Virus record (IMG/VR): IMGVR_UViG_3300012936_000121
Span: 1 to 28,496 of that record
Length of the DNA stretch: 28,496 nt
From: a virus
Reading direction: 5' to 3' (one strand)
The position numbers were made by a program, and so were the translations under genes. This document shows, piece by piece, positions 1 to 28,496 of the stretch. Position 1 is the first letter of the stretch. Each line of letters opens with the position of its first letter. The notes under the pieces are model-generated. The model made no database searches and was not told the origin of the DNA. It saw only the letters and a program-made list of their open reading frames with translations.

Positions 1-3000
1 AACACTGCCTAGTGGAACTTGGTATAATCTAAATTTATATTCTCTTTCGGATGTTACTTTGAAAGTTTCACTATAGCCTGCTTTTAAAATTGTGTTGTTT
101 AATTTTACAATAGTAAACCACTCGTGTGGTTCTTGAGTAAATGGAGTTTGTGTAAGAGTAAACGTTGTAGTACTTCCGTCATGTACAAATGTATCTTTGA
201 CTACACTACTAAAGTTTTGTATACTGCCTTCAAAGATTGCAAATCTTATTATTGCGTCCAAAGCAGGCGGTTGTGCAAAACTTATTACCACATTGCCTGG
301 AGTGATATATCCTGCATCACTTTTTATAAGAACATGTTCTACAGATTTTCCATTTACAGTAATTAAACTTGTCATGTTTTCAGTAAATCTAATATTTGTT
401 AAAAAGTCTACAGTTGAACCATCTCCTATAAATTCGTCTATATCTAAAATATTAGATCCGCTGTACTCTAATGTAACTAAACTTACTTTTGAGTTGTCTG
501 CAGGAGCAGCAACAAATGTTATAGTTTTGTTAGTGTAATCAATTGTGTAATCAGTAGTAAGATTTTGTATTGTTCCATTTATTTTTACAAACAGTGCAGA
601 TTCAGTAACTGGTCTTGTTCCAATTTCAAAAGTTTTATTAACACCATCACCTCTATAGTTTCTGCTAATTATTTGGCTTGATCCTGCTGTAGGTCTTTCA
701 TAAACTTTAATGTCAACAGTATCTTGCACCCATCCAGGAACTAGTTCATCTGGACCTTTTGAGTTTGTTGGTGTTGTAAAGCTGTCACCGTCAACATTTA
801 TATCTTCAGGATTAAGTCCTCTCGCATTGCTGTATGCTAAATCACCACCAGTAAGTACTGTATCATAGTTTATATCAGTTGGTAAAAAGCTACCGTCACT
901 TGTAGTTTTTCTGATTACAATTATATCATCAGCACTAGTGGATATTCCTAATTCGTCTAAGAAAATAGTTGTTTGAACACCATCTCCTGTTATGCTACGC
1001 ATAATAGCATTTGGATTGGCAAATTGTGTACTATCATCTGTCCAATCAGGATCATCTAATCTCACGCCGTTTCTATATACGTTATAAAGTATTCCTTCCT
1101 CTAATGGTTTAGACAATGTCAATGACACTGTACTTCCATCTAATTCAAATTTTTCATCTTCAAAAGTTATATCATAAGTATCATATGATCCAGTAAACCA
1201 AGGAGCGGCATCCCAACCATTTGGTCCTCCAAAGTCAAAACTTTTTACTTCAACTCCTCCGTAATCAATGCCATCCATTAATTGACTTAGATCTTTATCA
1301 TACTGACCTGTTTGAGGATCATATACTAAATTAATTCTATCCTGTGCATGAAGTAAACTTATTTGTTTTTTGTATGTAACTACAATAGCAGACAAATTAT
1401 CTGGCGGAAGTGTTAATGTTATTCTACCTTTATATCTATCATAACCTTTGTTAGTATCCAATATATTTTCATATGTGTATTGACTCTTTAATAATTCTTC
1501 TCCAGCTACAGATACAAATACATTTGTAGATTTCATATCCATTGGCCACTGTAAATCATAAATGTATTTCGATCCTGTACCTACAAAATTTTCTGTTTCG
1601 TCAAGATTAGTAATTAAATACTTTCCAGACAGTCTATCTATTTTCATTACTGTGCTAATTGATCTAGCTAGAGATTGTCCTATAATCAAACTTAGTTTTG
1701 CAGGAGTACCTCCTTCATTCAAAGAACCTTCCACAGTAAGGGTTGGAGCATTTAAATAACCTTTGCCAGGATTTAAAACTTCAACATCTGTTACTCTACC
1801 ACCAGCACCTAGTTTTGTAATTGCTTTAGCACCAGTGCCGCCACCGCCTTCGATTCTAAGTATAGGCGGATATGTATAACCCGAACCGCCATCTGCGATT
1901 TTTATTTCTTGTACTACAAATCCTAAGTTGTCTTTCCAATTTTTTGCAGGATATGTTGTAGTAGAAAAATCACTGCCTTGAATTTTCCCGTCTACAACTT
2001 TCAAACTTGAAGTTTCTATTTTTTCTGTAGACTCGTTGTAATATGGTGGTAAATCAAAATCACTTGTTAAATTATTACTTAAATCTAATTTTTCATAACC
2101 ACTGACATATTCTCTTAGCTTTGTTTTGAATGGCTTTACTTCATCAATATATTCTTGGTAACTAGGTAAGTTATCATTATTGAATGTAATATCTTTTCTA
2201 AGTTCACCAACATTGTGCTTAGCCTTTATAAAACTTGTTTTGAATAACCAATCAACATATAGTTGTTCAGATAGTATATACCTTATACTTGCAAAAAATA
2301 GTTTGTTATATTCTACTTCTAATGTTTCAGTAAATAAATCATTTTTAATAGCAGTAGCTATAATTCGTGTTTCTGTAGTGGGCAAACTATCATAAAATTT
2401 TGTATCAAAACTTATTTCATCAAATCCATCAAATGATACTGTTGTATTATATATAGACTTCTTGAAATTAATTGTGCCATTTTGTCTACCTATAGTTTGA
2501 TAGTTGACTGTATAATCTACATTGCTTTGATCATCGATTTTTCTTAAAAGAAGCCAGCCGCCCGAACCAATATTGTTAATTTTTACAATATCATTTATCT
2601 CATCATCCAAACCATCAAGTTGATAGGAAAAATCAATAGTGTACTTAGGCTCGCTAAATGGTCCATATCCTGTCAAATACCAATCCTTATAATCCCAATA
2701 TAAGGTTGTGTTGTATGCTTGGCTCTGGAATCTATCCCAGCTGCTATTTTCAAAATTTCTTTCATACAATGACCACTTGCCTTGAATTTCTTCATCTGCT
2801 TTGACCAACACAGTGAATTTTCTAATTTCGATTAATGTGTTGTCATTATAATTTTTGCCTCCATTAACAATTTCAACATTAGTAATAGATCCTACACTGT
2901 TTAGTGTAAATTTAAATTCAGCATCTGAACCTATGCCTGTAATTTTGTATGTAGGTGGCACAAGATATCCTCTACCTGGATCAAGGACAGTAGTTCCTAC

Positions 3001-6000
3001 AATTACACCGTCTTTTACAGTGACCGTCATTGTAGCTTGTTTTGCTTTTGCTACACCTAAAAATTCTAAATCAGCTTTAGTGTCTACTGATGTGTCGTAA
3101 ACATTTGTTACCGCACTAGGTTGCGGCTCTTGCTTTTGTAAATTAACTAAACTTTTACTTTCCACAATAAGTTCTTTTTCAATTACTGTGTTTACTCTTT
3201 CTATATATTGTTTTAAAGCCTCTAAGCGGTTTACAAACCAACTTTGTCTAGGACTATTTAAAGTTCCATATTTTTGCTTTTCTCCTAAGTTAGGATCCGG
3301 AACTATTCTTCCGTACAAATCATAACCTACTAAACTGTCAATCCATTTCTTTTCAATATCTCTATTTGGTTTGCTTGTAGCTAAACCATCACTTACAATT
3401 TGATATTGGTTATGAATGTTTACATCTTTTTTATCTATTGTCCACCATTGTATTCCTATAGCAACATCGTCATTTTCTAAATATTTTTCTATGTTAAAAG
3501 CTGAAAAACTATCATTGCTGAATAAGCCTACAAATTCATATTGTTGATTATTAGGATCAGCTATTAACTGAGCTACTTCAGATGCTTTTAAACTTCTGCC
3601 TTCGACATCTGGTTTAATTTTCTTATCTTTTACCCAGTAGTAATATAAATTTGTAAATGTCTGCGATATAGGATCGAATTGTCTTTTTAAAGTATAAGCT
3701 GCATCTCCATATTTTGCCTGTCCTGATATACCTTCTGATATTCCTTCATCGGTGTCAGCTAAGTTATTCCATTCTGACGGCAGATACTTTGATTCTACCC
3801 ATTCGTACACATCGATAGTATTTCCTTCAAAAAGTTTGTTCCAGTTGTTTGCACTAAAACTAACATCACCTTGATATGCATTGTAAAACTTTGCGTTGGT
3901 TAAATCCCACCATAATTCACCAACATGTTGACTATGCCAAGCATCATTAGGATTATTAATTACTGATGTATCTGTTGCGGTATTATAAGAAGCAGGATCA
4001 TAGTAAAGTTTGAAACTTAAATTTTCCTCTGCAGGACCTGCAATTTTTCCTTGTACAGGATCAATATAATCAAGATATTTCAATAATTTTTTTGTTTTTG
4101 TATTATATAAAATTATTCTTTTAATCTTATCTAAATCAATTGTTTCTTTTGCTTCTCTAATTTTATTGTAAATCTTTTTAGCAGGATTTGGATTTCTAAA
4201 GTTAACAACAACACCTTTTTCGTTTTGATTATGGTTTACATTTGGTAATCCTACATATACATGTCCGTCCATAAGTAAAGCATGTTTGCCAAAAAATGTA
4301 ATTGGTTGTCTTTCTTTTTCTACAAATATCTCAAATCCAAGCGGTTGTCCATATATTAATTTACTTTCTATATTTTCATAAACATAAATTATACCTGAAT
4401 TATCTACTTCAAATTCAAATCTTGTAAAATCTTTATCAAATATTAATGTATTTGAATCAAATGTAGTATTTTTTCCGCTATCAGCATTTTTAGCATTAAC
4501 AACTAAATGCTTTCCATCAAAATCTATTTTGTCACCAAATTGTTCTGCACTATCGTTTTGAGGGCTTTCTAATGTTTGATCTAAATTCCAAGTGCGAGAT
4601 ACAGCATCATATTTGTATAGATAAACTCTTCCTTGATCATTTTTAATATCATCACTTAGAGGATCACTTATTGCAATAAACGTACCGTCATTGTTAATTG
4701 CAATACTATGTCCAAATTGTGCATGTGTAGAGGGTGCAGGTATATCAGCACTCCAACCATATTGTCCGTTATTATTTCTATATACCGCAACAACGTTAGG
4801 TTTGTCTGTATACTTAACATTTGTGATCAATACTTCACCGTCATCACTTAAATCAAAATCAGATGCAAAGTCATTCATATTTGTAAGTTCGATTGAACTG
4901 TCAACAGCACTATCATTAATAACTTTTAATCCTGTATCATTAGGAATATATCCTACGTAATCGATCATATCATCTGTTGAATCCCAGAATGTTGCATCAA
5001 ATGGTCCAGGAGTTAAATTTGTTATTGCATTAAACAGACTTCCATCATTATATACTATATCTCCGATATAATAATTTTTCGAAGCATCAAAATCACCTTT
5101 GAATTTTTTGTTCTTAGCATAGTCCCAAGCATAACTATTATTGTTTTCTGTACCAAATTTTAAAAAGAATATTTTGCCTTGATTTGAAACTGTTTCTGCA
5201 TCGGTTGCACTTACAAATGCTCTATATAAATCACCAATTCTTTTCAAAGCAACTTTAGCACCAAAGTAATTGTTTGTTTTTCTTTGTGGAGATACCACAG
5301 TCTGTGCTATTACATATTGCTGACCAAATCTTTCAAAAATTGATACATAACCTTCATTGGTGTAAGAGCTTGCTGAACCTGCAGATTGTGCCGTAACTTT
5401 GAATACTTCTGTCCAATCTAAATTTTCAGCACCAGGTATATTTGCCAACCTAGGTACTCCTAACACAGTTGAACTTTTATAAATCCAATATTCAACATCT
5501 TTTAGTTCAAATGTAGTTGGTACTGATATTGCTGTTGCAGAATCAAATACTAATAATTTTCCAATGCCTGCAGGTGCATAACCTAAACTTATTTGTTGTA
5601 TTTGACCCATTACCCTGTCGGTAGTATATATACCAACTCTGCCATAAACATCAGGATCAGGTCCACTGAATCCTTGAGTGCCTGGCAAAGCTAAAAATTC
5701 TATTTCAGCGTTATCGCCAAACAAATCACCTTTGCTAAAACTACCAGATACATTTTTAACATAAATTGTAACATCTCTAAAGTTACGTTTATAATACATG
5801 ACTTCAGCAGTTGCACCTGTAGTTACATCACGTACAATTTGGCCGGCACCGTTATCAATCCAACTTGTACCAACATATTGATATCTTGCAATTGGTTCGA
5901 AAGGTTCTCCGTCTAGTGTTTTAGTTACTCTGTAGTCAATATAGCCGTCCCATACATCAAATACACTATGCGTTTTATTAGTCAGTGTATACGATAAATT

Positions 6001-9000
6001 TATATCTGATGGCGATACAAGAATTCCTACGTCAGGCGCACTGTTTGGTCTAGACAATAAAGGTCCACTTTGTGAACCAGATAACTGGTCAACTGTGCTA
6101 AATGATCCTGTAACATTTTGCACTTGTATGTTGTTTGTATTAGTAGCTGAAGCAAATACTGTTGCTGTTGCTCCTGTATTATCTTGTGAAATAATTTCAC
6201 CTGCTACAACAGAAACATTGTTATTAACATTTAAAGTTGTTACTGTTTTTTTCAATCTATTGAAATAAAACTCTATTGAGTCACCTGGTGATATTGTGTC
6301 TGTCAATTCCTTTGGTGCTCTTGCTACCCAATATGGAGCTTCAAACGGATCTGAAACACCTAAAGGTCCCGGAGCGCCTTGAAAACTTAGTGATTGTATT
6401 AAACTATTGTCAGTATTGAGACTTTCAATAGTTGATGTAGCAGTATCTAAACTATTGTAATAATAATTTGAGCTTGCACTACTATCTGTGACAACATTTT
6501 TAACAACTAATCCTCTACCACTATCACTGTTTACTGTGCCTACTGTATAAGGATTACTAGACTGAATTAAAACGTATCCACCCAACTCTGAGCTTCCATC
6601 AAATGTAACATCGCTTGGTGCTACTGATTCATATTCTCCAATAAAATCGTTTCCGTCAATAAACAAACTATTGCTTAATGGAAAAGCACCGTTTGTATTG
6701 TTAACATATATAGTGACACTTCCTCCTGCAGTGAAAGTATAAACCACTGTTGCTGTAGCACCTTGTGTAGTTACGATATCACCTATTTGAGGAGTATTTG
6801 TAACCTGATCAACATATAAAATAGTGTCAATTTTTTTGGACACTGTGTGATTAGATTCTAAATATTCTTTTGTAATATAAGGAATAGAATTGTTAAAAGG
6901 CAATCTTTCTTGCAAAGTGATTTGCGTTTGATTAGCATTTGTTAATTTGTTCCAATGTAAAAATATCTCATCAGTTTCGCCTATTCCTTCATACATTGCC
7001 GGTGGAACACGTACTAAAAAGTGATCAGCTGTAATATTTGTAAATGGATAGTCTCCAGCAAGTAAACTATCTATATCTTCACTGCCTTCTTCATCTATAT
7101 TAAGGTTATAAATTATTTGATCATAATTTACAAAACTGTTAAATTCAATATTTGTTTCACTTCCTTGAATAGCATTATCTGCTGTCCAATACGATCCTTG
7201 ATAACTTACTATATCACCTGCACCATAATCTGTAGATGCCACGTAATTTCCTTTGAAAGTAGTTTTTACATTACTTGCATTCGGTGAACCAATAATAATG
7301 TATCTTCCATCTTTCGATATTTCAACACTGCTTCCAAATTTTTCGCCTGATGCAGCAACATTTACTGTAGGTAGTAAAACTTGGAACAACTCCCAGGTAG
7401 CAGCATCACTTGGTCTTTTGTAAATATACACTTTACCATTGCCGTCATCCGGTGCTCCTATAGCTAAAATTACATTTCTTTCATCAACAGACAAACCAAC
7501 ACCAAAATTAGTCAATGCCGTTTGAGGAGTTTTAATTGTATCTATCTGGTCAAAAGTATTTGTATTTTCAAGCACTGTCCATTTAGAATTTCCTTGATCG
7601 TCAATCCAGATTTTAAAACCTTTTTCATTTGATGTTTGTGCAATTAAATTAGCAGACTCAACATCTGTAGCTCTTACTGATCTAAATTTAGTAATTACAC
7701 CATCCGACTCTTCAAAGTCAGTTGGAGGGTTATCACTTTCTAATTCTATTCTATTTAGATTAACACTTTTAACTTTGTAAAAACCTTTGATAGGTGCAGT
7801 CTCAAATGTTGCTTCTTGTGTGCTATCTTCCGCATCAAAAGTTGTTTTAGAAATCCTAACGATTCCTAATATATCTCCCACTTTTACATCAGTTGGTGTT
7901 GATTGTAAATTCAAAGTAAAACTATCTGTTCCACTTGTAACACCATCTAAAACATAATTTGTGTCAACATATTGATATACATTCCAACTAAAGTCAACAT
8001 TACCAATCCATACATATTGATTATTTTTTATTTTATCAATATCTAATGATAAAAGATTATTGTATGTGCCAACTACAAAATTTACATCATCTGGATTGAC
8101 ATAACCACTGTCTTTTGTGAATCCTTTTGTAACAAGTTTTGTAGGAAAAGGTTTATGATTATAGTCTTTAGATTTTAAGTAAGTTTGGTACTCTTGTATT
8201 CTATAAACAAGATCAGTTTCTGCTCCAGTAACACGATTCGTTAACAGTATAGGTTGTGGTTGTAGTCTAAACGCTCTTTCGTCTAGTTTATATTCAACTT
8301 CGTCAAAACTCTCATTCCCACCATATTGTCCATCTTTGATAGCCCATTCTTCATAAAATTCTAAACTATCTTGATCAGCACTTGCTAACGCATCAAATAA
8401 TTTTGTTAATGCATTCTTTGTTCCTTTGTCTTGAATAAATCCTTGATAGAATTTATATTGACTCACATCATCGTTAACAATATTTTCTAAATATTTTCTT
8501 TTCTGATAACCGATAAGATGTTGTGCAAGTTTCTGTTGTTCTGAATCAAAATTATCACTGTCTAAATCGTAAAAATCTGCAAATTGGTTTGTCTTATAAT
8601 CCCAGTTGGCAAACAATCCAGAAGTAGGAGGTCCGTCTAGTCGGCTCCAGCTTTCAGCTTCGAAAATAGATGTACCAGGTGTTTTATTTTTTGCGGTATA
8701 ATAAAATTCTTTATATTTTACTACATCGCCTATTGCATAATCTTGCCATGCTTCCCATTCTGTAATTTTTGCATCGTCAAATATAAATCCTGGTATATTT
8801 AAACTGCCGTTCCAATCCGCAGTTCTATATCCTAATACTTTAATTCTTTCTTGTCTATAGCCCGGTTCTACATCATATATTACATCACCAAATACAGTGT
8901 AGTTGTCTATCAAACATACATGTTCTTTAGATACAAGAGGAATTTTTATGTGATATATTCCATCTGTAGTATCTGCCGTTCTAACACTAAAATTGTTATC

Positions 9001-12000
9001 ACTATCTTTTGCAAATTTTAAGTTTGTTGTAGGTAAAATTTTACCATCTGCTTTTAAAATGCTATAACCAAAAAATGTTTCTAAAACATTAGAAGCTGTA
9101 GCATAATTGCTACTAAAATTAATTTTATCTGCTCCTGGACTTAAACTAAGCACAGTGCCGGGACCCCAATTTTGTGTAGTCCAATATAAAAATTCCCTTA
9201 CACTTGTTTGCCAATCAGATACATCATAAGTGTCTTCTCTAAATTGACTAAAAGTAAATCCTAGTTCTTCTAAATACTTTCCATAACCTAATATAAAATC
9301 AACCACATCTTGAATATTTTCAAACAACGTACCGTAGTTTAAAACTTGCGAAGTTGTGGCAAATGTATTTCTCATAAATGCATCGCGTCCTCCTGTGGAA
9401 GGTAAAACAGCTAATTGCACATATTTGCTAGTATCAAATTCTGTAGTGCTTGTATGCGTTTCAGTTGCTCTATAATAAGCAGAACCATTTTTTACAACAA
9501 CACCTGATACATAAGTTTTGCCGGCATCCCAAGTTACAAATGCTTCTGACACGCCTCCTACATTTATTAAAGGATCGTTTGTTTTAGGAATGACTGGAAA
9601 ATAATTAAACACAGGATTAGTGTTATCATATCCTTTAATATAATAACCTTCTTCTTGTTTTTCTATTATAAGTCCACTGTATGTTACTTCTTGGGTAGGA
9701 AAACTAGAATTTAAAAATATTTTATAATTTTCATCAGGAACAAAAACATTTCCTTCGTTTAAAGGAGTTCTACTATCTAGAATTAATCTAAATTTATTTT
9801 TATCTGTAAATCCTCCAATTTTAAAACCGATTTGATTTCTAATATTAAAAATATTATCTTTATACTTTCCTATATTTTCTCTAGTCAGAGCAGTTTGATA
9901 ATCAAAAATATAATTTATTATTCCACTTGTAAAAATCTGACTTGTATCGTCTATTGTTGTAGGAAATACAATACTGTTAAGTTGTATCTGTTTACCTGCA
10001 TCCCCATATACAATTTGGTCTGCTAAATTTCTTGTTTGTCTAAGTCTATCAAAAGCGGTAGCAAATACTTTGCTAGGCCTATTAATTAACATGCTTCTAA
10101 TTATAGCAAAAGGATATTCACTACTTCTACGCCATGCAGCTTCTACAGGAGAACCATCTCCAAATTTAAAACTATCATTTGCAGACGCAATATTTAAATT
10201 TTTAATCAACCCGCTTCCGTTAGGGCTAAGTAATCTTCCCTCACTGTCAACCGGTAAATGATTTAGCAAATCAGGTCTAGCATATTTTTTATTAATTGTA
10301 AAATTAGGTTGTCTAATTATACCAGCTTGTATATCTTCCCAAAGTAACAAATTATTGCTAGTGTAAGGACCTGCTCCATATTCACTTTCCCACCATGTAG
10401 GCTTAACTGTAAAGCCTAGCATTTCCCAAGGATGGGTATGTGGACGATCTGTGTCATATGCATGCCTATATAATTCTCTCCACCAACCTGGGCAAAACTC
10501 TGTATCATTATATCTACTTTGTGAATAATTAAAAGTAAATTCATTATTCCTTTGGAAGTAATCATGTTTTGTATATTCTAAATCAACTAATCTTAACCAA
10601 GATGAAAATTCATTGATCATAGAATTATCTAAATCATTTTTTTCAATCCCTTGTGACCTATACAACCCTTTTGATAACTCATGAATATCAAATAATTTAG
10701 GATCATATTCTACTTTTAAATTATTATAAATTCTTTTTTCTAAATCTAATAACAAATTATCTCTAAAATCTTTAAAAGCTGTAACTTTACTTCCGTCATG
10801 GCCTTGTATTACAGGAGAGCCTTCAATCCATTCGTCATAATCATCTGTATCTTGTAAACCATGTCCAGAACCTGTATTAGGCATGTAAAATTGTGTTGCT
10901 AATCCTACAAAAGTATGTAAATGAGCTTGGCCACTTCCGCCTAGTTCTGTGTCTCTAGCCTGAGCTTCTTCTAAAGTAGCATACAATGGATAGAACCATC
11001 CTAGTTTCCCAGCTCCGTTTTGATTAGGACCTGCTACACCATAAAACTTATAAGGCCCTGTTGGTAGATCTGGTGGTAAATTTTGAACAGTATCGTCTAT
11101 ATATAGAAGTGGTTCATACTTAGGATACAAACCCAATTTTGTAGGAGTAGGAGGAACATATGAACCGTTAGTGTTATCATATTCGATGATATCTATAATA
11201 TCTCCAATTTGCTTAGTAGTTGTAACCACAGCAAATCCTTCACTATTAAAAGTGTAGTCTGCTCCATATGTAAGTTGTAATCCGTTTTGATAAACATGTA
11301 CTGCTTTTGTACTAGGAGTGGTAATATCAAAAATACTTGTCAATGCAAAAAATGTTTGATCAGTATCTTCAATAGTAATAGAATTTATTTTTTTGCCGCC
11401 TAATGGAACCATATCACTAAAGTAATACGGCATGGCATTAGTTTTATCTTTGATTAGATTTTCTAAAATTTTATCAACGTGTAACCTTACTGGTCCATCA
11501 TAACCTAATTGGTCAGCTGTTTCTAAAAATGATCTTTTAAATTTACCGTAATCTGATCTAGCACTACTGAGTGCTTTGACTGCATTACTATTTTCATCTA
11601 GTAAATGATATAAACTTAAATTAATAGGACCTGAATGTTTTAAAAACTTTTTACCTAATAAAGAAAGATTGCCTATATCTCTTAAATTGCTTGCTCCAGG
11701 AAACATACCTGTAAAATTATCTGACTCTTCAACAATAGTTCGCAAATGATCATTGACTTCACCTAAAGTAAATTGGTTTATATTATTGTTAAGAGGATTT
11801 TTTTCAAGATTATTTGCTATCTCATAATAACCGTTATTATTTTTTGCTTTACTGCTTCTTGTTTTAATTAAAACGATATCATTTTTATTAAGTTTTTCAA
11901 CAAAATTTATGCTACTTTTATTGTTGACATCTTGTAAAATATTATAATCAGTATCTTTCTTTTTGATTTCGTTGTTTACATATACTCTAATCCACAAATC

Positions 12001-14139
12001 ATTTATAAATGATGTATCATCATAAACATCTATTTCAAATTTTTGTTGATTTTCAGTTGCAACATATTGCCTTATAATATTTTGTGTACTATCACTTGAT
12101 GCTTTTTCCCAACCGTTTACTAAACTGTAAGCAGTTCTATCTTGATATTTTCTTAAGAAACCTTCATCAGTGTTTTTTCTTTGCAAAGAATTATTTAAAG
12201 TGTAAGTGAAAGATTCGTTCAACAAATTAAATGTGAAAACAATGTCACCTGTATTTTCTATACTTCTATATGTTAAAGGAAATCCTAACTCAACATCATT
12301 TGTGCCAGCGCCTCTTGTATAAGAAAATATTTCATTACCAGTAAACAATGAAGAATTATACACATTTGTATCACTAAAACTATAATCATTTTTGTCTACA
12401 AGATCAAATTTTGGCTGTTGATTGACGCTATTTTTACTTTGTCCTTCATTCCAGGAAGTGCCATTGTAGAAAAAGTATTTTCCTCTATTTGCTTCACCTT
12501 GTGTAATTAACACTGTTTCGTTAGTTTGTGGAATACTATCTTCTTCTTCAACTAAAGTTATTTGTGTTTTATTTGCTATTCTTACAAATTTTACTTTAAA
12601 AATTCTTCCTTTTACTAAAGGATCTGGGTCAGCTGTAAATAACACACGCATACCCTCTGTAAGATTTACTCCATCTATATTATAACCTTCTGCACCTTCA
12701 ATATAAGAAAACGCATCAATAGTAAAATTATCTATTAGATTTACATTACCTTTACTAAATGTTCCAAAGTTAAAAAGTTTTAATCCTTTTTCAAATTCAA
12801 TAATAGGTCTGGAAGCTCTACTTGCTTGATCTATATTTGCAATCTGATCGTTAATTGTTGCAGATTTTTCGATTACACTTTTGTGGAACCATCTATTATA
12901 TCTACTCCATAAGTTACCGTCTTTGCTTCCTCTGTTAATTACAATGTAATCTTTTGTACTAGGAAAACCAAGTGCTTCACTAAAAGGATAAAAATCAAAT
13001 TCTTGTGCATCAAATGCAACAGTAACATCGTCTGTAAATAAACCACTGACTTGTAAATCTTCTTGTTTAATTAGTTGTATTTTATCGCCAACACCCTCAA
13101 CATACCATTCACCTTCAGCATACTTGGTTGGTGTAACATTGCCTAAAAATTTTAATTTCATACCGTTTGATAAATCAAAACCTGTACTTGTTTTATAAGT
13201 TTTTTTACCAACTATTTCTGCATCTACATTTATTTCTGTATTTTCAAATATTTCATTTACTGAAATAGTTCCACTTAAATTAGGATCATCTTTAGAAATA
13301 TAATATAAAGTTTCAGGAGCGTCATCAGGAATAGTAAATTCTATTGTTCCTTCATCTAACCAATCATCAGTTACAACATTTCCGTTTAAATCATATTTTG
13401 TAATTCCTGCGGTATATAAAAGTGACGTATTGGTTGTTTCATCTGTTGGTAAGCGACCTGGAGTAAAACTAACTTTTGTTACAAATGCAATTGGATAGTT
13501 TGGAGTGTTGACAGAAAATCTATATGTCTGTCCTTTATAAAAAGTTAGTGTAGGATTACTAGTTAACCCATCTGGACTAAACAAGTATGCTGGTGATCCA
13601 GCATTATCTTTTATTTCTAATGAATAAGTGCTTTGTACTTCTTTAGCTTGTCCAAAAACACTTACTGTAGTAGGACCTGTAGGCAACCAATAATACTCTC
13701 TATAGTTTACAAATTTGTCCCAGTCTACATGCGGATTCCAAGCATAATATTCTTGGCTGTTTAATTTGCTATGATCTTTTGTGTTACTAGAAAGTATTTT
13801 TAATTTGTTTATATAATCATTGTAATCAGCATAGAAATTTACATTTCCTAAATTGTCTTTAATTACAGTACTTGGTTCTAATTGGTAATTTTCTCTCTCT
13901 TCAGTTACATCTCCCACATAATTGTCAGTAGACTTATATGCTAAAGCATTTTTTCTTCCGTAAAAAACATTTAATTTTTCCGCAACACCCGGTTGCGTCA
14001 TTTGATCTAATGTTGATGATAAGAACTTATTATTAAATTCGGTACGAAAATATTTAGGAAGATGATTAGCTGTCTTCCTTTTATAGTTTTTATCACCTGC
14101 TGGAAGTGAAGGTTCCTGTTGATTATTTTCAAAAGCCAT
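1..14139 (-). CDS. Giant virion structural protein, partial (at least 4713 aa)
   Basis: An uninterrupted frame starts with ATG at 14139 and continues to base 1 without a stop, so at least 4713 residues (over 500 kDa) are present and the C-terminus lies outside the window. The start overlaps the gp6 stop by one base (TAATG), with GGAGG in the Gly codons of gp6 about 12 bases upstream. The N-terminal part is rich in Trp and Tyr (for example EYYAWNPH and YYWLPTGP, near residues 126-155; PWEMLGF and KPTWW near residue 1235). Further on are four short Trp/Tyr modules resembling carbohydrate-binding folds, FG-GAP-like beta-propeller strands (about 2207-2294 and 2894-3217), paired Gly-rich GxGY repeats and, near the left edge, GDG-x-F beta repeats typical of phage tail fibres. 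No signal peptide or membrane segment is visible. Its place directly after gp6, where T4 has genes 7, 8 and 10, suggests a baseplate-periphery or tail-fibre component. Very large structural ORFs are known in marine T4-like phages. The exact role is inferred. Confidence 0.9.
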   Translation of the reverse strand, partial: MAFENNQQEPSLPAGDKNYKRKTANHLPKYFRTEFNNKFLSSTLDQMTQPGVAEKLNVFYGRKNALAYKSTDNYVGDVTEERENYQLEPSTVIKDNLGNVNFYADYNDYINKLKILSSNTKDHSKLNSQEYYAWNPHVDWDKFVNYREYYWLPTGPTTVSVFGQAKEVQSTYSLEIKDNAGSPAYLFSPDGLTSNPTLTFYKGQTYRFSVNTPNYPIAFVTKVSFTPGRLPTDETTNTSLLYTAGITKYDLNGNVVTDDWLDEGTIEFTIPDDAPETLYYISKDDPNLSGTISVNEIFENTEINVDAEIVGKKTYKTSTGFDLSNGMKLKFLGNVTPTKYAEGEWYVEGVGDKIQLIKQEDLQVSGLFTDDVTVAFDAQEFDFYPFSEALGFPSTKDYIVINRGSKDGNLWSRYNRWFHKSVIEKSATINDQIANIDQASRASRPIIEFEKGLKLFNFGTFSKGNVNLIDNFTIDAFSYIEGAEGYNIDGVNLTEGMRVLFTADPDPLVKGRIFKVKFVRIANKTQITLVEEEDSIPQTNETVLITQGEANRGKYFFYNGTSWNEGQSKNSVNQQPKFDLVDKNDYSFSDTNVYNSSLFTGNEIFSYTRGAGTNDVELGFPLTYRSIENTGDIVFTFNLLNESFTYTLNNSLQRKNTDEGFLRKYQDRTAYSLVNGWEKASSDSTQNIIRQYVATENQQKFEIDVYDDTSFINDLWIRVYVNNEIKKKDTDYNILQDVNNKSSINFVEKLNKNDIVLIKTRSSKAKNNNGYYEIANNLEKNPLNNNINQFTLGEVNDHLRTIVEESDNFTGMFPGASNLRDIGNLSLLGKKFLKHSGPINLSLYHLLDENSNAVKALSSARSDYGKFKRSFLETADQLGYDGPVRLHVDKILENLIKDKTNAMPYYFSDMVPLGGKKINSITIEDTDQTFFALTSIFDITTPSTKAVHVYQNGLQLTYGADYTFNSEGFAVVTTTKQIGDIIDIIEYDNTNGSYVPPTPTKLGLYPKYEPLLYIDDTVQNLPPDLPTGPYKFYGVAGPNQNGAGKLGWFYPLYATLEEAQARDTELGGSGQAHLHTFVGLATQFYMPNTGSGHGLQDTDDYDEWIEGSPVIQGHDGSKVTAFKDFRDNLLLDLEKRIYNNLKVEYDPKLFDIHELSKGLYRSQGIEKNDLDNSMINEFSSWLRLVDLEYTKHDYFQRNNEFTFNYSQSRYNDTEFCPGWWRELYRHAYDTDRPHTHPWEMLGFTVKPTWWESEYGAGPYTSNNLLLWEDIQAGIIRQPNFTINKKYARPDLLNHLPVDSEGRLLSPNGSGLIKNLNIASANDSFKFGDGSPVEAAWRRSSEYPFAIIRSMLINRPSKVFATAFDRLRQTRNLADQIVYGDAGKQIQLNSIVFPTTIDDTSQIFTSGIINYIFDYQTALTRENIGKYKDNIFNIRNQIGFKIGGFTDKNKFRLILDSRTPLNEGNVFVPDENYKIFLNSSFPTQEVTYSGLIIEKQEEGYYIKGYDNTNPVFNYFPVIPKTNDPLINVGGVSEAFVTWDAGKTYVSGVVVKNGSAYYRATETHTSTTEFDTSKYVQLAVLPSTGGRDAFMRNTFATTSQVLNYGTLFENIQDVVDFILGYGKYLEELGFTFSQFREDTYDVSDWQTSVREFLYWTTQNWGPGTVLSLSPGADKINFSSNYATASNVLETFFGYSILKADGKILPTTNLKFAKDSDNNFSVRTADTTDGIYHIKIPLVSKEHVCLIDNYTVFGDVIYDVEPGYRQERIKVLGYRTADWNGSLNIPGFIFDDAKITEWEAWQDYAIGDVVKYKEFYYTAKNKTPGTSIFEAESWSRLDGPPTSGLFANWDYKTNQFADFYDLDSDNFDSEQQKLAQHLIGYQKRKYLENIVNDDVSQYKFYQGFIQDKGTKNALTKLFDALASADQDSLEFYEEWAIKDGQYGGNESFDEVEYKLDERAFRLQPQPILLTNRVTGAETDLVYRIQEYQTYLKSKDYNHKPFPTKLVTKGFTKDSGYVNPDDVNFVVGTYNNLLSLDIDKIKNNQYVWIGNVDFSWNVYQYVDTNYVLDGVTSGTDSFTLNLQSTPTDVKVGDILGIVRISKTTFDAEDSTQEATFETAPIKGFYKVKSVNLNRIELESDNPPTDFEESDGVITKFRSVRATDVESANLIAQTSNEKGFKIWIDDQGNSKWTVLENTNTFDQIDTIKTPQTALTNFGVGLSVDERNVILAIGAPDDGNGKVYIYKRPSDAATWELFQVLLPTVNVAASGEKFGSSVEISKDGRYIIIGSPNASNVKTTFKGNYVASTDYGAGDIVSYQGSYWTADNAIQGSETNIEFNSFVNYDQIIYNLNIDEEGSEDIDSLLAGDYPFTNITADHFLVRVPPAMYEGIGETDEIFLHWNKLTNANQTQITLQERLPFNNSIPYITKEYLESNHTVSKKIDTILYVDQVTNTPQIGDIVTTQGATATVVYTFTAGGSVTIYVNNTNGAFPLSNSLFIDGNDFIGEYESVAPSDVTFDGSSELGGYVLIQSSNPYTVGTVNSDSGRGLVVKNVVTDSSASSNYYYNSLDTATSTIESLNTDNSLIQSLSFQGAPGPLGVSDPFEAPYWVARAPKELTDTISPGDSIEFYFNRLKKTVTTLNVNNNVSVVAGEIISQDNTGATATVFASATNTNNIQVQNVTGSFSTVDQLSGSQSGPLLSRPNSAPDVGILVSPSDINLSYTLTNKTHSVFDVWDGYIDYRVTKTLDGEPFEPIARYQYVGTSWIDNGAGQIVRDVTTGATAEVMYYKRNFRDVTIYVKNVSGSFSKGDLFGDNAEIEFLALPGTQGFSGPDPDVYGRVGIYTTDRVMGQIQQISLGYAPAGIGKLLVFDSATAISVPTTFELKDVEYWIYKSSTVLGVPRLANIPGAENLDWTEVFKVTAQSAGSASSYTNEGYVSIFERFGQQYVIAQTVVSPQRKTNNYFGAKVALKRIGDLYRAFVSATDAETVSNQGKIFFLKFGTENNNSYAWDYAKNKKFKGDFDASKNYYIGDIVYNDGSLFNAITNLTPGPFDATFWDSTDDMIDYVGYIPNDTGLKVINDSAVDSSIELTNMNDFASDFDLSDDGEVLITNVKYTDKPNVVAVYRNNNGQYGWSADIPAPSTHAQFGHSIAINNDGTFIAISDPLSDDIKNDQGRVYLYKYDAVSRTWNLDQTLESPQNDSAEQFGDKIDFDGKHLVVNAKNADSGKNTTFDSNTLIFDKDFTRFEFEVDNSGIIYVYENIESKLIYGQPLGFEIFVEKERQPITFFGKHALLMDGHVYVGLPNVNHNQNEKGVVVNFRNPNPAKKIYNKIREAKETIDLDKIKRIILYNTKTKKLLKYLDYIDPVQGKIAGPAEENLSFKLYYDPASYNTATDTSVINNPNDAWHSQHVGELWWDLTNAKFYNAYQGDVSFSANNWNKLFEGNTIDVYEWVESKYLPSEWNNLADTDEGISEGISGQAKYGDAAYTLKRQFDPISQTFTNLYYYWVKDKKIKPDVEGRSLKASEVAQLIADPNNQQYEFVGLFSNDSFSAFNIEKYLENDDVAIGIQWWTIDKKDVNIHNQYQIVSDGLATSKPNRDIEKKWIDSLVGYDLYGRIVPDPNLGEKQKYGTLNSPRQSWFVNRLEALKQYIERVNTVIEKELIVESKSLVNLQKQEPQPSAVTNVYDTSVDTKADLEFLGVAKAKQATMTVTVKDGVIVGTTVLDPGRGYLVPPTYKITGIGSDAEFKFTLNSVGSITNVEIVNGGKNYNDNTLIEIRKFTVLVKADEEIQGKWSLYERNFENSSWDRFQSQAYNTTLYWDYKDWYLTGYGPFSEPKYTIDFSYQLDGLDDEINDIVKINNIGSGGWLLLRKIDDQSNVDYTVNYQTIGRQNGTINFKKSIYNTTVSFDGFDEISFDTKFYDSLPTTETRIIATAIKNDLFTETLEVEYNKLFFASIRYILSEQLYVDWLFKTSFIKAKHNVGELRKDITFNNDNLPSYQEYIDEVKPFKTKLREYVSGYEKLDLSNNLTSDFDLPPYYNESTEKIETSSLKVVDGKIQGSDFSTTTYPAKNWKDNLGFVVQEIKIADGGSGYTYPPILRIEGGGGTGAKAITKLGAGGRVTDVEVLNPGKGYLNAPTLTVEGSLNEGGTPAKLSLIIGQSLARSISTVMKIDRLSGKYLITNLDETENFVGTGSKYIYDLQWPMDMKSTNVFVSVAGEELLKSQYTYENILDTNKGYDRYKGRITLTLPPDNLSAIVVTYKKQISLLHAQDRINLVYDPQTGQYDKDLSQLMDGIDYGGVEVKSFDFGGPNGWDAAPWFTGSYDTYDITFEDEKFELDGSTVSLTLSKPLEEGILYNVYRNGVRLDDPDWTDDSTQFANPNAIMRSITGDGVQTTIFLDELGISTSADDIIVIRKTTSDGSFLPTDINYDTVLTGGDLAYSNARGLNPEDINVDGDSFTTPTNSKGPDELVPGWVQDTVDIKVYERPTAGSSQIISRNYRGDGVNKTFEIGTRPVTESALFVKINGTIQNLTTDYTIDYTNKTITFVAAPADNSKVSLVTLEYSGSNILDIDEFIGDGSTVDFLTNIRFTENMTSLITVNGKSVEHVLIKSDAGYITPGNVVISFAQPPALDAIIRFAIFEGSIQNFSSVVKDTFVHDGSTTTFTLTQTPFTQEPHEWFTIVKLNNTILKAGYSETFKVTSEREYKFRLYQVPLGSV
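140..1010 (-). other. GDG-x4-F tail-fibre-like repeats in the giant protein
   Basis: Near the left edge are four units beginning GDGVQTTIFL, GDGVNKTFEI, GDGSTVDFLT and HDGSTTTFTL (residues about 4378 to 4660). Most are followed by a strand such as (L/I)-(V/F)-V-K-(I/L)-N-(G/N)-(T/K). This G-D-G-x-x-x-x-F then V-x-(I/V)-N-G pattern is common in phage tail-fibre and appendage proteins. It favours an adhesion or fibre role for this part of the protein. Confidence 0.45.
1730..1925 (-). other. Paired Gly-rich GxGY repeats in the giant protein
   Basis: Residues about 4072-4137 show two tandem copies of a beta unit: IADGGSGYTYPPILRIEGGG, then GTGAKAITKLGAGGRVTDVE, then VLNPGKGYLNAPTLTVEG. A similar pair lies at 2835-3045 (LDPGRGYLVPPTYKITG and VEIVNGGKNYNDNTLIEI). 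This G-x-G-Y-x-x-(P/A)-P-x-(L/Y) repeat is frequent in large marine phage structural proteins. Its function is unknown to me. Confidence 0.55.
2835..3045 (-). other. Second GxGY repeat pair in the giant protein
   Basis: Residues about 3699-3769 repeat the unit described at 1730-1925: a hydrophobic strand, G-x-G-Y, a Pro-rich turn, a strand, then GSVTNVEIVNGGKNY. The second half is degenerate (NDNTLIEI in place of PP). Confidence 0.45.
4490..5460 (-). other. FG-GAP-like beta-propeller segment B in the giant protein
   Basis: Residues about 2894-3217 of the giant protein carry at least four blade-like units. Each has the pattern (N/Q)-x-F-G-x-x-(V/I)-(A/S)-(I/L), then a D-G turn, a hydrophobic strand, (S/A)-(D/A)-(P/A) and later G-(R/K)-(V/I)-(Y/F)-hydrophobic. 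Clear examples are NNYFGAKVAL, HAQFGHSIAINNDGTFIAIS followed by GRVYLYKYD, and AEQFGDKIDFDGKHLVV. The pattern matches FG-GAP/integrin-alpha propeller blades, which fold as beta-propellers and often bind ligands or metal. Module 4 of the Trp/Tyr repeats lies within this segment, so the propeller appears to be interrupted by inserted domains. Confidence 0.6.
4968..5105 (-). other. Trp/Tyr module 4 (CBM5/12-like) in the giant protein
   Basis: Residues about 3012-3058 read FKGDFDASKNYYIGDIVYND and then GSLFNAITNLTPGPFD, closing with TFWDS. It starts with FKGxF/Y like module 3 and also sits beside FG-GAP-like strands, so modules 3 and 4 look like a duplicated blade-plus-module unit. Confidence 0.5.
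7155..7265 (-). other. Trp/Tyr module 3 (CBM5/12-like) in the giant protein
   Basis: Residues about 2292-2329 read TFKGNYVASTDYGAGDIVSY and then QGSYWTADNA. The Y-x-x-G-D-x-V-x-Y-x-G-x-x-W-x-A core is intact, but the closing Trp is not obvious. The module directly follows the second FG-GAP-like blade. Confidence 0.5.
7266..7520 (-). other. FG-GAP-like beta-propeller segment A in the giant protein
   Basis: Residues about 2207-2292 contain two blade units. The first reads TNFGVGLSVDERNVILAIG and then APDDGNGKVYIYKRP; the second reads KFGSSVEISKDGRYIIIGSP. The spacing and the FG, DG, GAP/GSP and GKVYIY positions match FG-GAP blades. The segment is separated from segment B by about 600 residues of other sequence. 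Either there are two partial propellers, or one propeller is split by insertions. Confidence 0.6.
8630..8768 (-). other. Trp/Tyr module 2 (CBM5/12-like) in the giant protein
   Basis: Residues about 1791-1837 give the clearest example: WEAWQDYAIGDVVKYKEFYY, then TAKNKTPG, ending in ESWSRL. The order W, Y-x-x-G-D-x-V, Y, YY-x-A and a closing W is that of small carbohydrate-binding modules (ChtBD3/CBM5-12 type) common in phage tail fibres and chitinases. Confidence 0.5.
9398..9545 (-). other. Trp/Tyr module 1 (CBM5/12-like) in the giant protein
   Basis: Residues about 1532-1581 have the pattern W-x5-Y-x3-x-V-V-x-N-G-x-x-Y-Y-R-A (TWDAGKTYVSGVVV followed by NGSAYYRATETH). It resembles the short three-strand chitin/cellulose-binding domains in which exposed aromatic residues contact sugars. 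It is one of four such units spread through the protein. Sugar binding is inferred from the pattern only. Confidence 0.45.
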
Positions 14140-17100
14140 TAGTAACCATATCCTCCGCCACCGCCTGACGATCCACCACCACCTGATGATCCACCACCAC
14201 CTGATGATCCGCCGCCACCTGATGATCCACCACCACCTGATGATCCGCCGCCACCTGAGTATCCTCCTCCGGAGCTACTACTGCTTGAACTACTTGGAGT
14301 ACTCGAACTAGGTGTACTACTTGCTGAACTAATTGTGCTACTACTTGTAGATGTGTAAGTGGTTGTACCGGAAGTAACAGCGGCACTTGTAATACCTGTA
14401 TTTGCTGAACTTCCGCTAGTGACAACTAAACCAGATGCCACTAACTGATTAGCTGTTATTGCATCTATTATTTGTAAGTCATTAACTGTTGCACCACTAA
14501 TAAAAATTTCATCTACTTCTGATTTTATTTCAAATAAACTTCCAAAAGTTTGACTTGCATCTTCTGGAACAATTAAAAAAGTTACTATGTCTGGAGCCAT
14601 TTCTTTCATAACATATGTTGAAAGTTCTGAGAAGTAAAATTTATCTCCAAATTCCCAGTTTTCTAATGCAAAAAATTGATTAATTAAACTAATTACTCGA
14701 GACTTGATATCGTTATCATTTAATACAATACCAGAATTTTTTACTATTTTAAATTTTGCTTGCAATGTGCTTTCTGCCTTGTTTCCGAACAATACTCTAT
14801 ATTTCACCGGATGAAAAATTAATTCATCACTTAATGATTTTATTTTAGCTAAATCTGCGCCATAACTTGTATACAAAGCATCACTAGATGCAGGTAATGG
14901 TTTATTTGCTATCACACCATCTAAGTATTGCCTAAATAGTGTATCATATCCTCTTGTTAAAACATATGTATCAATAATATTGCTTGAGCTAGGATCAATA
15001 CGAGATGTGTCATCTGCAGCATGAATGTATTGGAATTTAATTTTTTCTCTTCCTAAATATGCTTTGTAATCAGAGGTGATTGATGTTTTACCTGTAGTTT
15101 TATTATATACTTCAAATATCTGTTCATCAATAAAATAAAAAATCTGCATATCTGCATATTGACTTAATGCTCCTAATGAACTTTTATTTTGTTTTATAAT
15201 TACGTTTAAAGAATCGTTGCTTATAAAATTGAAATCAACCACTCCGTCTTCTGTAATAAACTTTTTCAAGAATATATATTTTGATGTAAGATTTACATTA
15301 GGAGCAACAATTTCTTCAAAAATTTGTGGGTCGTCTACTACACCATCATCATCATTATCAAAAAATGTTACTTCTACTTTTTTACTATTAACATATCCAA
15401 CTGAATCACGAAATTCTTCTGTAATTTCCCAATTTTGATCTGTGGTAAAATTTACTATGCTATCTGGCTTGTTATTATTATTTAAAACGATTATCCTGTC
15501 TTTAACTACCTTGCCGGTTAGATTATTGTAAATTTTATCGCTGCTATCAAAATAAAATCTTATCTCTTTGTCTGACTCAAAAACATATCTACTTCCTCGA
15601 TATTCTATGGTATATGTTTCTCCGTCAGTTGTAAATTTTAAGAGCCAACTTGCATCAATACGCTGTCCGGAAATATCACCGGTTTTTCCTATGCTAAATC
15701 CGGATGTAACATCTAAGTTACTTTCAGTTACAAGACGCCATTGACCTAAATCTCTATCAAATCTTAAGCCAAATGTTTTGTTGGAAAAAATTTGATCTAC
15801 TAATTGTGTTTTGACATCATCTTCTATAGTTTGTGCAACACTTGGTTTAATTTCTACTAATTGTGCTCCTGTAGGAATAACATCATTTAATAACACAGGT
15901 CCAGATCCGTCTTCATTATCTACAGTTCCGTTGCCTGCTACATTAACTGTTTTTACCCATTTGTAAGTTATTGCTCCTGTGTAATTTGCTTCACCTGTTA
16001 TCAAGTTGCCTTCTTGATCAAAATGTTTTCCTTCAGGTGCTAAAAATTTTACAGAAGATCCTGGCTTAATTAATTTTAAAATACTTGTTGTAAAAGAACC
16101 TAGTGTTTGCTTAATATTATTGACATTAGTAAGATACCCTGTGCTTAAATTTGTATCTTTAGTGTTTTGATTCCATGTAATAGCCAAGTCTGCTGTATCA
16201 ACTTCTGGATATTCACTAGAGTAATAATTTCGTATTTTTTTGCCAGATAAGATAGGTTCAATAGTATTAATTATAATACCTTCAATATCTGTTTGCGTTG
16301 TAAAAGTAAACTTATCTTTTGTTGTTAATATTTCTTTGTATAATACTCCGTCGGTTCCAAATAAATTTGTTTTACTATATTTTCCTGTAGCATCAACAAG
16401 ATCAAAGTAACGACTTATACCGCTTGTAGTTCTATTAACACTTTTTGCTTTTATTATTTCTTGATTTACACTTAAAGGTCCTATTTGATAATCTTCTGCT
16501 GTAATTAACCTATTTTGAGTATAGTATGTTGCAGGTGCACGTTCTTTTATGTTTAAACTTGTCTCAGAAGTGCTTGCATTATCTACTGTGTATTTTAATT
16601 CAAATACAATTGAAAGTGTCTCAATTTTTCCAATGCTACTAATATAGGGAATATCAATTGCAATACCTCTCATATCATCAGGAGTAATAATTAAATTTCT
16701 ATTTTTACTTGTTCTATAATATGTTCTAAATGATCCTTGCGGTAAGTTACCAAATGTTCCGTCTGCAAATATCAAACTGACTCTGTCTTCAGCACGAGAC
16801 AACACACTGTATATGTTTCTTATTTTTTTATTTAGGCTATTATAAATTACATTGTTGCCTTCGACAGCATCAACTTTTGTCCAAAGATCTGATTCAGTTC
16901 CTGTTTCGTCTAATTGGTATAACCAAATATCTGAATTGTTAATGTTATTAGCATCAATCCCTACTGTCTGATTTGTACTAGGATTAAGCACAGAAAAATC
17001 TCCTGAATCTAATGTGCCTTGTCTAAAGTGGCTAAAAAATCCTGTGTTTGCACTACCAGATCCTCTGCCATCTTCTCTGTATATTATAGAAAAACTGGCT

Positions 17101-27519: not shown

Positions 27520-27721
27520 TATAAAAGACGACACACATGATTTATTAACAAAGGCATATTTAGAATACTTCAAGGCAAGCGAAGCGTTTGAAGCAAGAAA
27601 TAGTGTGCGTACACACGGTGCGGCCAGAAAATGGTTGCGAGAAATACGCTCTCTAGCTAAAAAACGCATGGAAGAAATACACAACAAGCACAAAACCAAA
27701 AAAGACCAAGGCAACGAATAG
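27512..27721 (+). CDS. Hypothetical small helical protein, 69 aa
   Basis: I do not recognise this protein. It starts inside the end of the previous gene (8-base overlap) and is highly charged. It is predicted by eye to be two amphipathic helices: DLLTKAYLEYFKASEAFEAR and then ARKWLREIRSLAKKRMEEIH, with a Lys-rich end. The pattern suits a small DNA- or protein-binding helper, but nothing specific can be claimed. No cysteines and no membrane segment are present. Confidence 0.75.
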   Translation: MSDIKDDTHDLLTKAYLEYFKASEAFEARNSVRTHGAARKWLREIRSLAKKRMEEIHNKHKTKKDQGNE

Positions 27722-27739
27722 GCAACGGTAAGTATCCAT

Positions 27740-28162
27740 ATGCAATGGACTTATCAAGGAAAATCTATAGACGAATTACCACAAGGCGTTGAAGGATTTG
27801 TGTACTTGATAACAAATCTTACAAATAATAAAAAGTACGTAGGCAAGAAACTAGCAAAATTTAAAACCACAAAGCCACCACTAAAAGGCAAAAAAAACAA
27901 AAGGCGTGGATACAAAGAAAGCGACTGGAAAGATTACTGGGGTTCCTCAGATCATTTACTAGCAGATGTAGAAAAACTAGGTGTACAACAGTTCACAAGA
28001 GAAATTTTACATATGTGTCCAAGCAGAGGCGTAATGAGCTATTTAGAGGCCAAGGAACAATTCGACCGTAGAGTGCTAGAGACTGATGAGTATTATAACG
28101 GAATTATTAATGTAAGGGTCGGCGGTTCCAAAATTCTTAAAGAACATTTAAAGGCAATATAA
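27740..28162 (+). CDS. Small GIY-YIG nuclease-superfamily protein, 140 aa
   Basis: The GIY-YIG core is visible: F-V-Y at residues 20-22, Y-V-G at 33-35 with KK following, an aromatic WKDYWGSS at 63-70, TREIL at 86-90, and a probable catalytic Glu in YLEAKEQ (about 103). The family includes homing endonucleases such as I-TevI and the T4 Seg proteins, and also repair nucleases. This one is only a catalytic-size domain with no separate DNA-binding tail. Similar short proteins occur in marine T4-like phages, so a resident phage nuclease seems more likely than an active homing enzyme. It lies 18 bases after the previous gene, with a weak GGTAAG ribosome site. No intron is visible around it, although a structured non-coding region follows directly. 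Confidence 0.75.
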   Translation: MQWTYQGKSIDELPQGVEGFVYLITNLTNNKKYVGKKLAKFKTTKPPLKGKKNKRRGYKESDWKDYWGSSDHLLADVEKLGVQQFTREILHMCPSRGVMSYLEAKEQFDRRVLETDEYYNGIINVRVGGSKILKEHLKAI

Positions 28163-28297
28163 GGACAGTGTTTGATCGGGGTAGCTCGATCCGCTTTGAG
28201 GACATGCACACTCATGTTCAGAATCTAGCGAGTCCATTAATCTGTTGCTCCTAAAAACTCCTTGCAAAGGAACGAAGCTGGAGGTATAGTACAGGAT

Positions 28298-28316
28298 ACT
28301 TGCATATTCTGCAAGT
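28298..28316 (+). terminator. Possible terminator-like hairpin with T-run
   Basis: ACTTGCA and TGCAAGT form a perfect 7-bp stem with loop TATTC. TTTTAT follows, counting the last stem base. The stem is only moderately GC-rich. It could be a weak intrinsic terminator for the gp55-to-GIY-YIG gene set, or one arm of the larger RNA. Confidence 0.35.
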
Positions 28317-28472
28317 TTTATGTATTAGATGTCGACGTAGGTTGGGAAAGGTCAGAGCCCATGGAGCAAGTAAAACACCTACTTCCGATCTCGGCTGTGC
28401 GAACTCACATGAAGCTTGAGGTAGATGGAACCGCTAGTAGGTTCCGTCTGACTGAACAATCTACATGAAACG

Positions 28473-28489
28473 TAAGTGCTTCGCACTTA
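28473..28489 (+). terminator. Hairpin TAAGTGC-TTC-GCACTTA near the window end
   Basis: A perfect 7-bp inverted repeat with a three-base loop closes the structured region. It is followed by ATATAAA and not a clear T-run, so termination is uncertain. Because the repeat is symmetrical, it could act on either strand. Confidence 0.4.
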
Positions 28490-28496
28490 ATATAAA

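Follow-up and report, generated by a model that had tools for sequence, protein, structure and literature searches.

A modular structured RNA with a twin motif downstream of segE in uncultured aquatic phages

We analysed a 28,496-nt stretch of viral DNA (IMG/VR record IMGVR_UViG_3300012936_000121), hereafter the window, whose right end was read on both strands from position 28163 to the end of the contig. On the minus strand, one uninterrupted reading frame of over 4700 residues covers positions 1-14139, continues beyond the contig end and is adjoined by structural genes. On the plus strand, a segE-like GIY-YIG endonuclease gene occupies 27740-28162 (PF19835, E = 1e-34) and is not part of the RNA described here. 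Genes of this SegE type are tagged "NAD synthetase" in many phage records (phrog_447) despite a fit to SegE_GIY-YIG at 1e-34, probably a propagated misannotation. The segE stop ends at 28162, the first conserved helix begins at 28163, and the final conserved hairpin closes at 28489. Homologues, their covariation and the non-coding nature of the region indicate that 28163-28490 on the plus strand is almost certainly a conserved structured RNA gene, of the architecture that we designate type A. Short AGGCA(A) words (TAGGCAA, AAGGCACA) are repeated between the segE stop and the start of the RNA in many loci; they precede segE too, in the window at 27708-27735.

The preliminary description had seen in 28163-28496 a gene-free, G/C-rich stretch filled with dense stems, and the lack of genes and the composition were both borne out. 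The 334-nt stretch has a G+C content of 44.9% (window, 33.2%), a richness equalled by just 0.5% of the other 334-nt stretches of the window. The sole other strongly G+C-rich spot, 14130-14400, encodes a structural protein's Gly/Ser repeat tail, (SSGGGG)n. The minimum free energy (MFE) of the stretch is -102.9 kcal/mol, below all 372 other 334-nt folds of the contig. Compared with dinucleotide-shuffled controls, as had been proposed, the thermodynamic excess is modest, with a z-score of -2.5 for the plus strand (1 of 100 shuffles as low), -1.0 for the minus strand, and -2.1 for 28163-28490. The proof of a structured RNA is comparative, not thermodynamic. Conserved helices could be proven among the stems, but not all of those originally listed are conserved, and the single-sequence MFE fold differs from the evolutionarily supported one because the long-range pseudoknot is missing from it.

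Instead of codon-like conservation, the homologues carry stops in each forward frame (47 to 50 of 50), and the indels among them are mostly not multiples of three. The region is therefore not coding. A 68-residue open reading frame at 28262-28468 was rejected as a protein gene, being neither conserved nor spared by out-of-frame indels.

The 3' hairpin pattern matched 13 viral contigs, and a SegE protein search yielded 80 loci, many with related DNA immediately 3' of segE. Independently of segE, a pattern for the invariant core gave matches in 60 contigs. Among the fetched loci, nhmmer detected the RNA core in 115, and 57 unique cores formed the core alignment. The covariance model R1 recovered two loci left out of its training set, L136 and L144, at about 1e-14 despite their different helix sequences, and it matched viral records of 97-236 kb once per genome. 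Core patterns of two further architectures, types C and D, matched at least 120 contigs each. The RNA family is therefore very common, being shared by hundreds of uncultured aquatic phages.

To assess the helices, all on the plus strand, each sequence was paired with its own partner strand versus that of another sequence in 2000 permutations, which Plong, Pb, Pa and Pe each beat. Plong joins UUGCUCC (28245-28251) to GGAGCAA (28363-28369); more than 20 different complementary strand pairs occur among 44 distinct sequences, and none of the 2000 permutations was as good. In an alignment of 20 sequences (A2), 91.7% of the cells of Plong, Pa, Pb and Pd are paired; shuffles reach 72.2 ± 1.5% and slid controls no more than 46%. 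Both sides change in 16 of 20 pairs, including every counted pair of Plong. The changes among homologues thus preserve the pairings by compensation rather than destroy them, as the preliminary description had anticipated for a new structured phage RNA.

The 5' domain (alpha, 28163-28235) forms a three-way junction in a 17-sequence alignment (A3). Its helices P0 (28163-28166 with 28232-28235), P0a (28174-28180 with 28185-28191) and P0b (28192-28195 with 28227-28230) are paired in 100% of cells, and both strands of each helix change; only 58% of cells are paired in the apical hairpin (28202-28206 with 28213-28217), which is therefore variable. Within the core, the stem-loop Pa (28258-28283; 28258-28261 with 28280-28283 in A2) carries the conserved loop AGGAACGAAG, and the peripheral hairpin Pb (28287-28327) varies in length, with six of six counted pairs changing on both sides. 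The near-invariant strand GUCGACGUAGGUUGGG (28331-28346), made of invariant or nearly invariant columns, contains the 5' strands of Pd (28344-28346 with 28358-28360) and of the predicted helix Pc (28337-28342), which would pair with ACCUAC at 28377-28382. Plong crosses Pc, and the core is therefore pseudoknotted. Pc has little covariation of its own, because its near-invariant complementary strands show only C-G to U-G changes, too little variation for proof by covariation.

The 3' domain comprises Pe (28388-28422; 28388-28392 with 28418-28422; 0 of 2000 permutations as good), the hairpin Pf (GAUGGAACC/GGUUCCGUC, 28424-28448), identified from the 3' hairpin pattern and alignment columns, and a terminal hairpin, UAAGUGC-UUC-GCACUUA (28473-28489). 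The last is terminator-like only as read on the minus strand; no U-run follows on the plus strand. A further contact of 28351-28354 with 28449-28452 is possible from the sequence.

The most striking feature of the 3' domain is a pair of near-identical units, NNA-CUC-X and NNA-UCU-X, about 56 nt apart, in which X varies among phages and is identical within each RNA. In the window, copy 1 reads GAA-CUC-ACAUGAA-G (28401-28414, enclosed by Pe) and copy 2 CAA-UCU-ACAUGAA (28457-28469), both on the plus strand and recognised by the identity of the repeat across homologues. Among A/B cores, the first seven bases of X match between the copies in 103 of 103, with six distinct seven-base alleles, and X changed approximately 20 times on a segE tree of 82 rows; the allele of one locus (L068) in both the allele set and the tree is a mis-detection. 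Among distinct C/D RNAs, counted by the exact repeat, the seven bases recur after CUC and UCU in 116 of 162 at a spacing of 44-80, the other 46 having no match; the controls gave 0 at control spacing and 0 in reverse order. The C/D motif has 17 alleles, roughly RRAURAW, and the two bases preceding X co-vary as well (56 and 62 of 116 versus 35 expected).

X has no complement at a consistent place within the RNA, which led us to discard pairing within the molecule, and simple hairpins around each X form in some loci only. Nor does X appear to guide the RNA to a phage-genome target: across seven records of phages or MAGs, the sole recurrent complements of the extended motif were on the opposite strand of the RNA gene itself. 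X could still pair with a partner RNA via fewer than six consecutive bases.

Among known RNA families, the window gave no match to Polynucleobacter-1 (RF01718), either at the gathering threshold (at least 37 bits) or at E up to 10, and none to GOLLD, ROOL, OLE or any other Rfam 15 family at the family cut-off. Its sole Rfam match at E up to 10 was a snoRNA by chance, at 15.8 bits versus a cut-off of 100. In agreement with the preliminary description, which could place the stretch in no tRNA, tmRNA, RNase P, intron or riboswitch class, neither ARAGORN nor Rfam recognised a tRNA or tmRNA in the window, including permuted tmRNA. A group I intron was dismissed, as there is no Rfam match and the RNA follows a complete segE with no second gene half after it. 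Short look-alikes of RNase P RNA (GGAGCAAG, UAGAUG) had no model match at E up to 10, and a reading as SRP RNA had no Rfam support. The literature search did not find the whole architecture with its twin motif described; a published catalogue of structured RNAs predicted for viruses and phages could hold fragments.

Large structured phage RNAs without an assigned function are already a known kind, exemplified by GOLLD and ROOL (PMC12286853). GOLLD resembles the present RNA in being phage-borne, large and pseudoknotted, with a 3' part better conserved than the 5' part and no assigned function, but many of its members are longer than 800 nt, and it is located close to tRNA genes (PMC12286853). 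No twin motif is described for GOLLD. ROOL is likewise a phage or prophage RNA with pseudoknots and no assigned function, of about 660 nt and in another genomic setting (PMC12286853).

The window RNA thus belongs to no Rfam family; it represents one architecture of a large modular family that includes the Polynucleobacter-1 type. Five architectures (A to E, or the A/B core combined with a different 5' domain; type C assigned by a hand list) account for 55 of the 64 segE loci whose downstream sequence reaches at least 450 nt, and the nine loci without the RNA form one clade. At least about 17 switches of architecture occurred on the segE tree; therefore, modules are exchanged, whole 5' and core modules being swapped at one genomic position. 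The 5' domain of type C is common to type A, and a search with the A/B 3' domain gave weak but correctly placed matches (E 4e-4 to 0.014) to RNAs of types D and C. Members of the RNA-less segE clade (L022, L023, L032, L036, L044, L045) have a different conserved gene-free stretch with GATGAGAGAGGTTTAGAGGAGACATA downstream.

RF01718 was the only Rfam 15 family matched by the relatives. In five type D loci (L012, L027, L039, L060, L066), the first ~147 nt after segE are a full-length RF01718 with 62-108 bits. Polynucleobacter-1, described in 2010 from Burkholderiales and from fresh water or estuary (PMC2864571), is the 5' domain of one architecture of the larger modular family. The RF01718 model excludes the core, the 3' domain and the twin motif. 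The RNA that the preliminary description had put forward as possibly new is neither confined to this phage nor wholly without precedent.

In the A/B set, the RNA lies 3' of gp47-gp46-orf-segE, ahead of the border with reverse-strand genes, and its usual position in general is between gp55-gp47-gp46 and a reverse-strand structural gene, typically after segE. All A/B loci with at least 400 nt upstream have segE directly 5', except L144. The RNAs of L136, with only 217 nt of upstream sequence, and L144 have no segE, and the small and large terminase genes are nearby. In several C and D loci, a cargo gene of 0.7-1 kb separates segE from the RNA, and in further C/D loci segE is absent and the RNA still lies ahead of the same reverse-strand genes. 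The endonuclease gene is a frequent but dispensable neighbour, and the obligate association with a nuclease expected for an OMEGA-like nuclease-guiding RNA was not found, as segE is displaced or absent in these loci. The cargo was inserted exactly between segE and the RNA in L185, L191, L240, L300 and L355, which suggests a gene-acquisition hot spot; by eye, one cargo gene is like a GMP reductase/IMP dehydrogenase and one like a methyltransferase.

Sigma-70 promoters matching 11 of 12 consensus positions lie between segE and the RNA in two relatives, TTGACA-17-TATAGT in L063 and TTGACA-17-TATACT in L073, and the RNA is therefore a separate transcription unit, there at least. The window copy has no convincing promoter upstream of the RNA and therefore may ride on the gp46-segE transcript here. 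In most A/B loci (e.g., L005 3420-3950, L018 3850-3980), a second conserved element, GTTTGAGCGATAGCGAAAAC, lies just 3' of the RNA and is followed by a perfect hairpin (e.g., AATGAGCTTTAGCTCATT) before the next gene, an arrangement resembling a bidirectional terminator.

Because the two copies of X always change together, the RNA probably grips a partner molecule. Our preferred reading, with a probability of roughly 0.5 on sequence grounds, is that the folded RNA acts in trans and offers a co-evolving partner two equivalent sites at which to dock. We infer that the RNA would be produced as a separate early transcript and serve as a folded, trans-acting scaffold; each of its two units would dock one copy of the same partner. 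This partner would most likely be a protein of the phage or of its host, possibly a repeated nucleic-acid site. It would differ between phages, forcing both X copies to change together, and docking would sequester or position it during infection. More tentatively, the twin X might constitute a two-site, lineage-tuned recognition element of T4-like phages that reads out a phage-lineage-specific partner, an arrangement with no described counterpart.

The RNA might instead act in cis, as a 3' UTR element for protection or termination of the gp47-gp46-segE mRNA, in line with its place 3' of the operon at a convergent gene border and with the window copy lacking a clear promoter of its own. We consider this unlikely, since consensus promoters separate segE from the RNA in relatives, the RNA is found after unrelated genes too, and its complexity and pseudoknot go beyond the needs of stability or termination. 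The processed 3' UTR suggested by the preliminary description is likewise unlikely as a general rule, given the promoters of L063 and L073 and the RNAs of L136 and L144 without segE. HEARO/omegaRNA is a structured RNA beside a nuclease gene, that of IscB, with HNH/RuvC domains. By analogy, segE and the RNA could form one unit, an RNA-associated GIY-YIG nuclease. The structured RNA adjoins an endonuclease gene here too, and directly so in nearly all A/B loci with at least 400 nt upstream. However, the nuclease is of the GIY-YIG type and not HNH/RuvC, and the RNA persists without its gene or at 0.7-1 kb from it, as L136 (in its 217 nt) and L144 also illustrate. Common descent accounts for the linkage, given the synteny with gp46; nine segE loci that make up one clade have no RNA; and the RNA type switches about 17 times on the segE tree, all of which makes a common unit highly improbable.

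A conformational switch would account for the duplication differently: the two units would compete for one site in the same RNA and toggle two folds, for example with the invariant core AGAG pairing either with the CUC in copy 1 or with the UCU in copy 2. The sole fixed difference between the units, CUC versus UCU, is indeed complementary to the overlapping GAG/AGA of the A/B invariant AGAG. Yet no complement exists within the RNA for X itself, which is what changes in concert, and in D-type RNAs a GAG/AGA partner shows no obvious conservation, so we regard a switch as quite unlikely. Improbable, too, is a self-assembling ornate RNA like GOLLD or ROOL that forms a homo-oligomer in infected cells. 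Such an RNA would share the large structure, the better-conserved 3' part and the exchangeable 5' part, as in GOLLD (PMC12286853). The present RNA is shorter (330-500 nt) and matches neither covariance model, and its repeats are direct, not complementary, offering no obvious kissing interface.

For a trans-acting RNA with two docking sites, the twin motif provides a concrete handle on the presumed partner that sees both copies. Few classes of large structured phage RNAs are known, and none has an assigned function. Here, many uncultured phages of aquatic habitats carry such an RNA at one position, with interchangeable architectures, and an Rfam family from 2010 is shown to be a domain of something larger.

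The carriers are a large, mostly uncultured group of T4-superfamily-like phages (gp55, gp47, gp46). Judged by gp46, the closest relatives in culture are jumbo phages, including PA5oct and Phosso, with less than 50% identity; the group is therefore essentially uncultured. Queries of the five types found no match to the RNA in cultured phages: matches of one query to Lactococcus phages span only 35 nt and are due to chance, and the window query gave only short matches (E 4). R1 was also run on the cultured jumbo phages nearest by gp46. A match in Atu_ph07 (23.5 bits), having neither the invariant motif nor the Plong helix, was taken as chance, as were those in PA5oct and XaC1, which are situated inside genes. 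Phage Melnitz has a SegE homologue, but the gene after it follows at only 149 nt. Xanthomonas phage XaC1 (OR258281, our L163) has a gene-free stretch of ~700 nt (4148-4870) right after gp46 and endonuclease VII, with no Rfam or R1 match; lying at a comparable position in a cultured jumbo phage, it is possibly a distant counterpart that can be grown.
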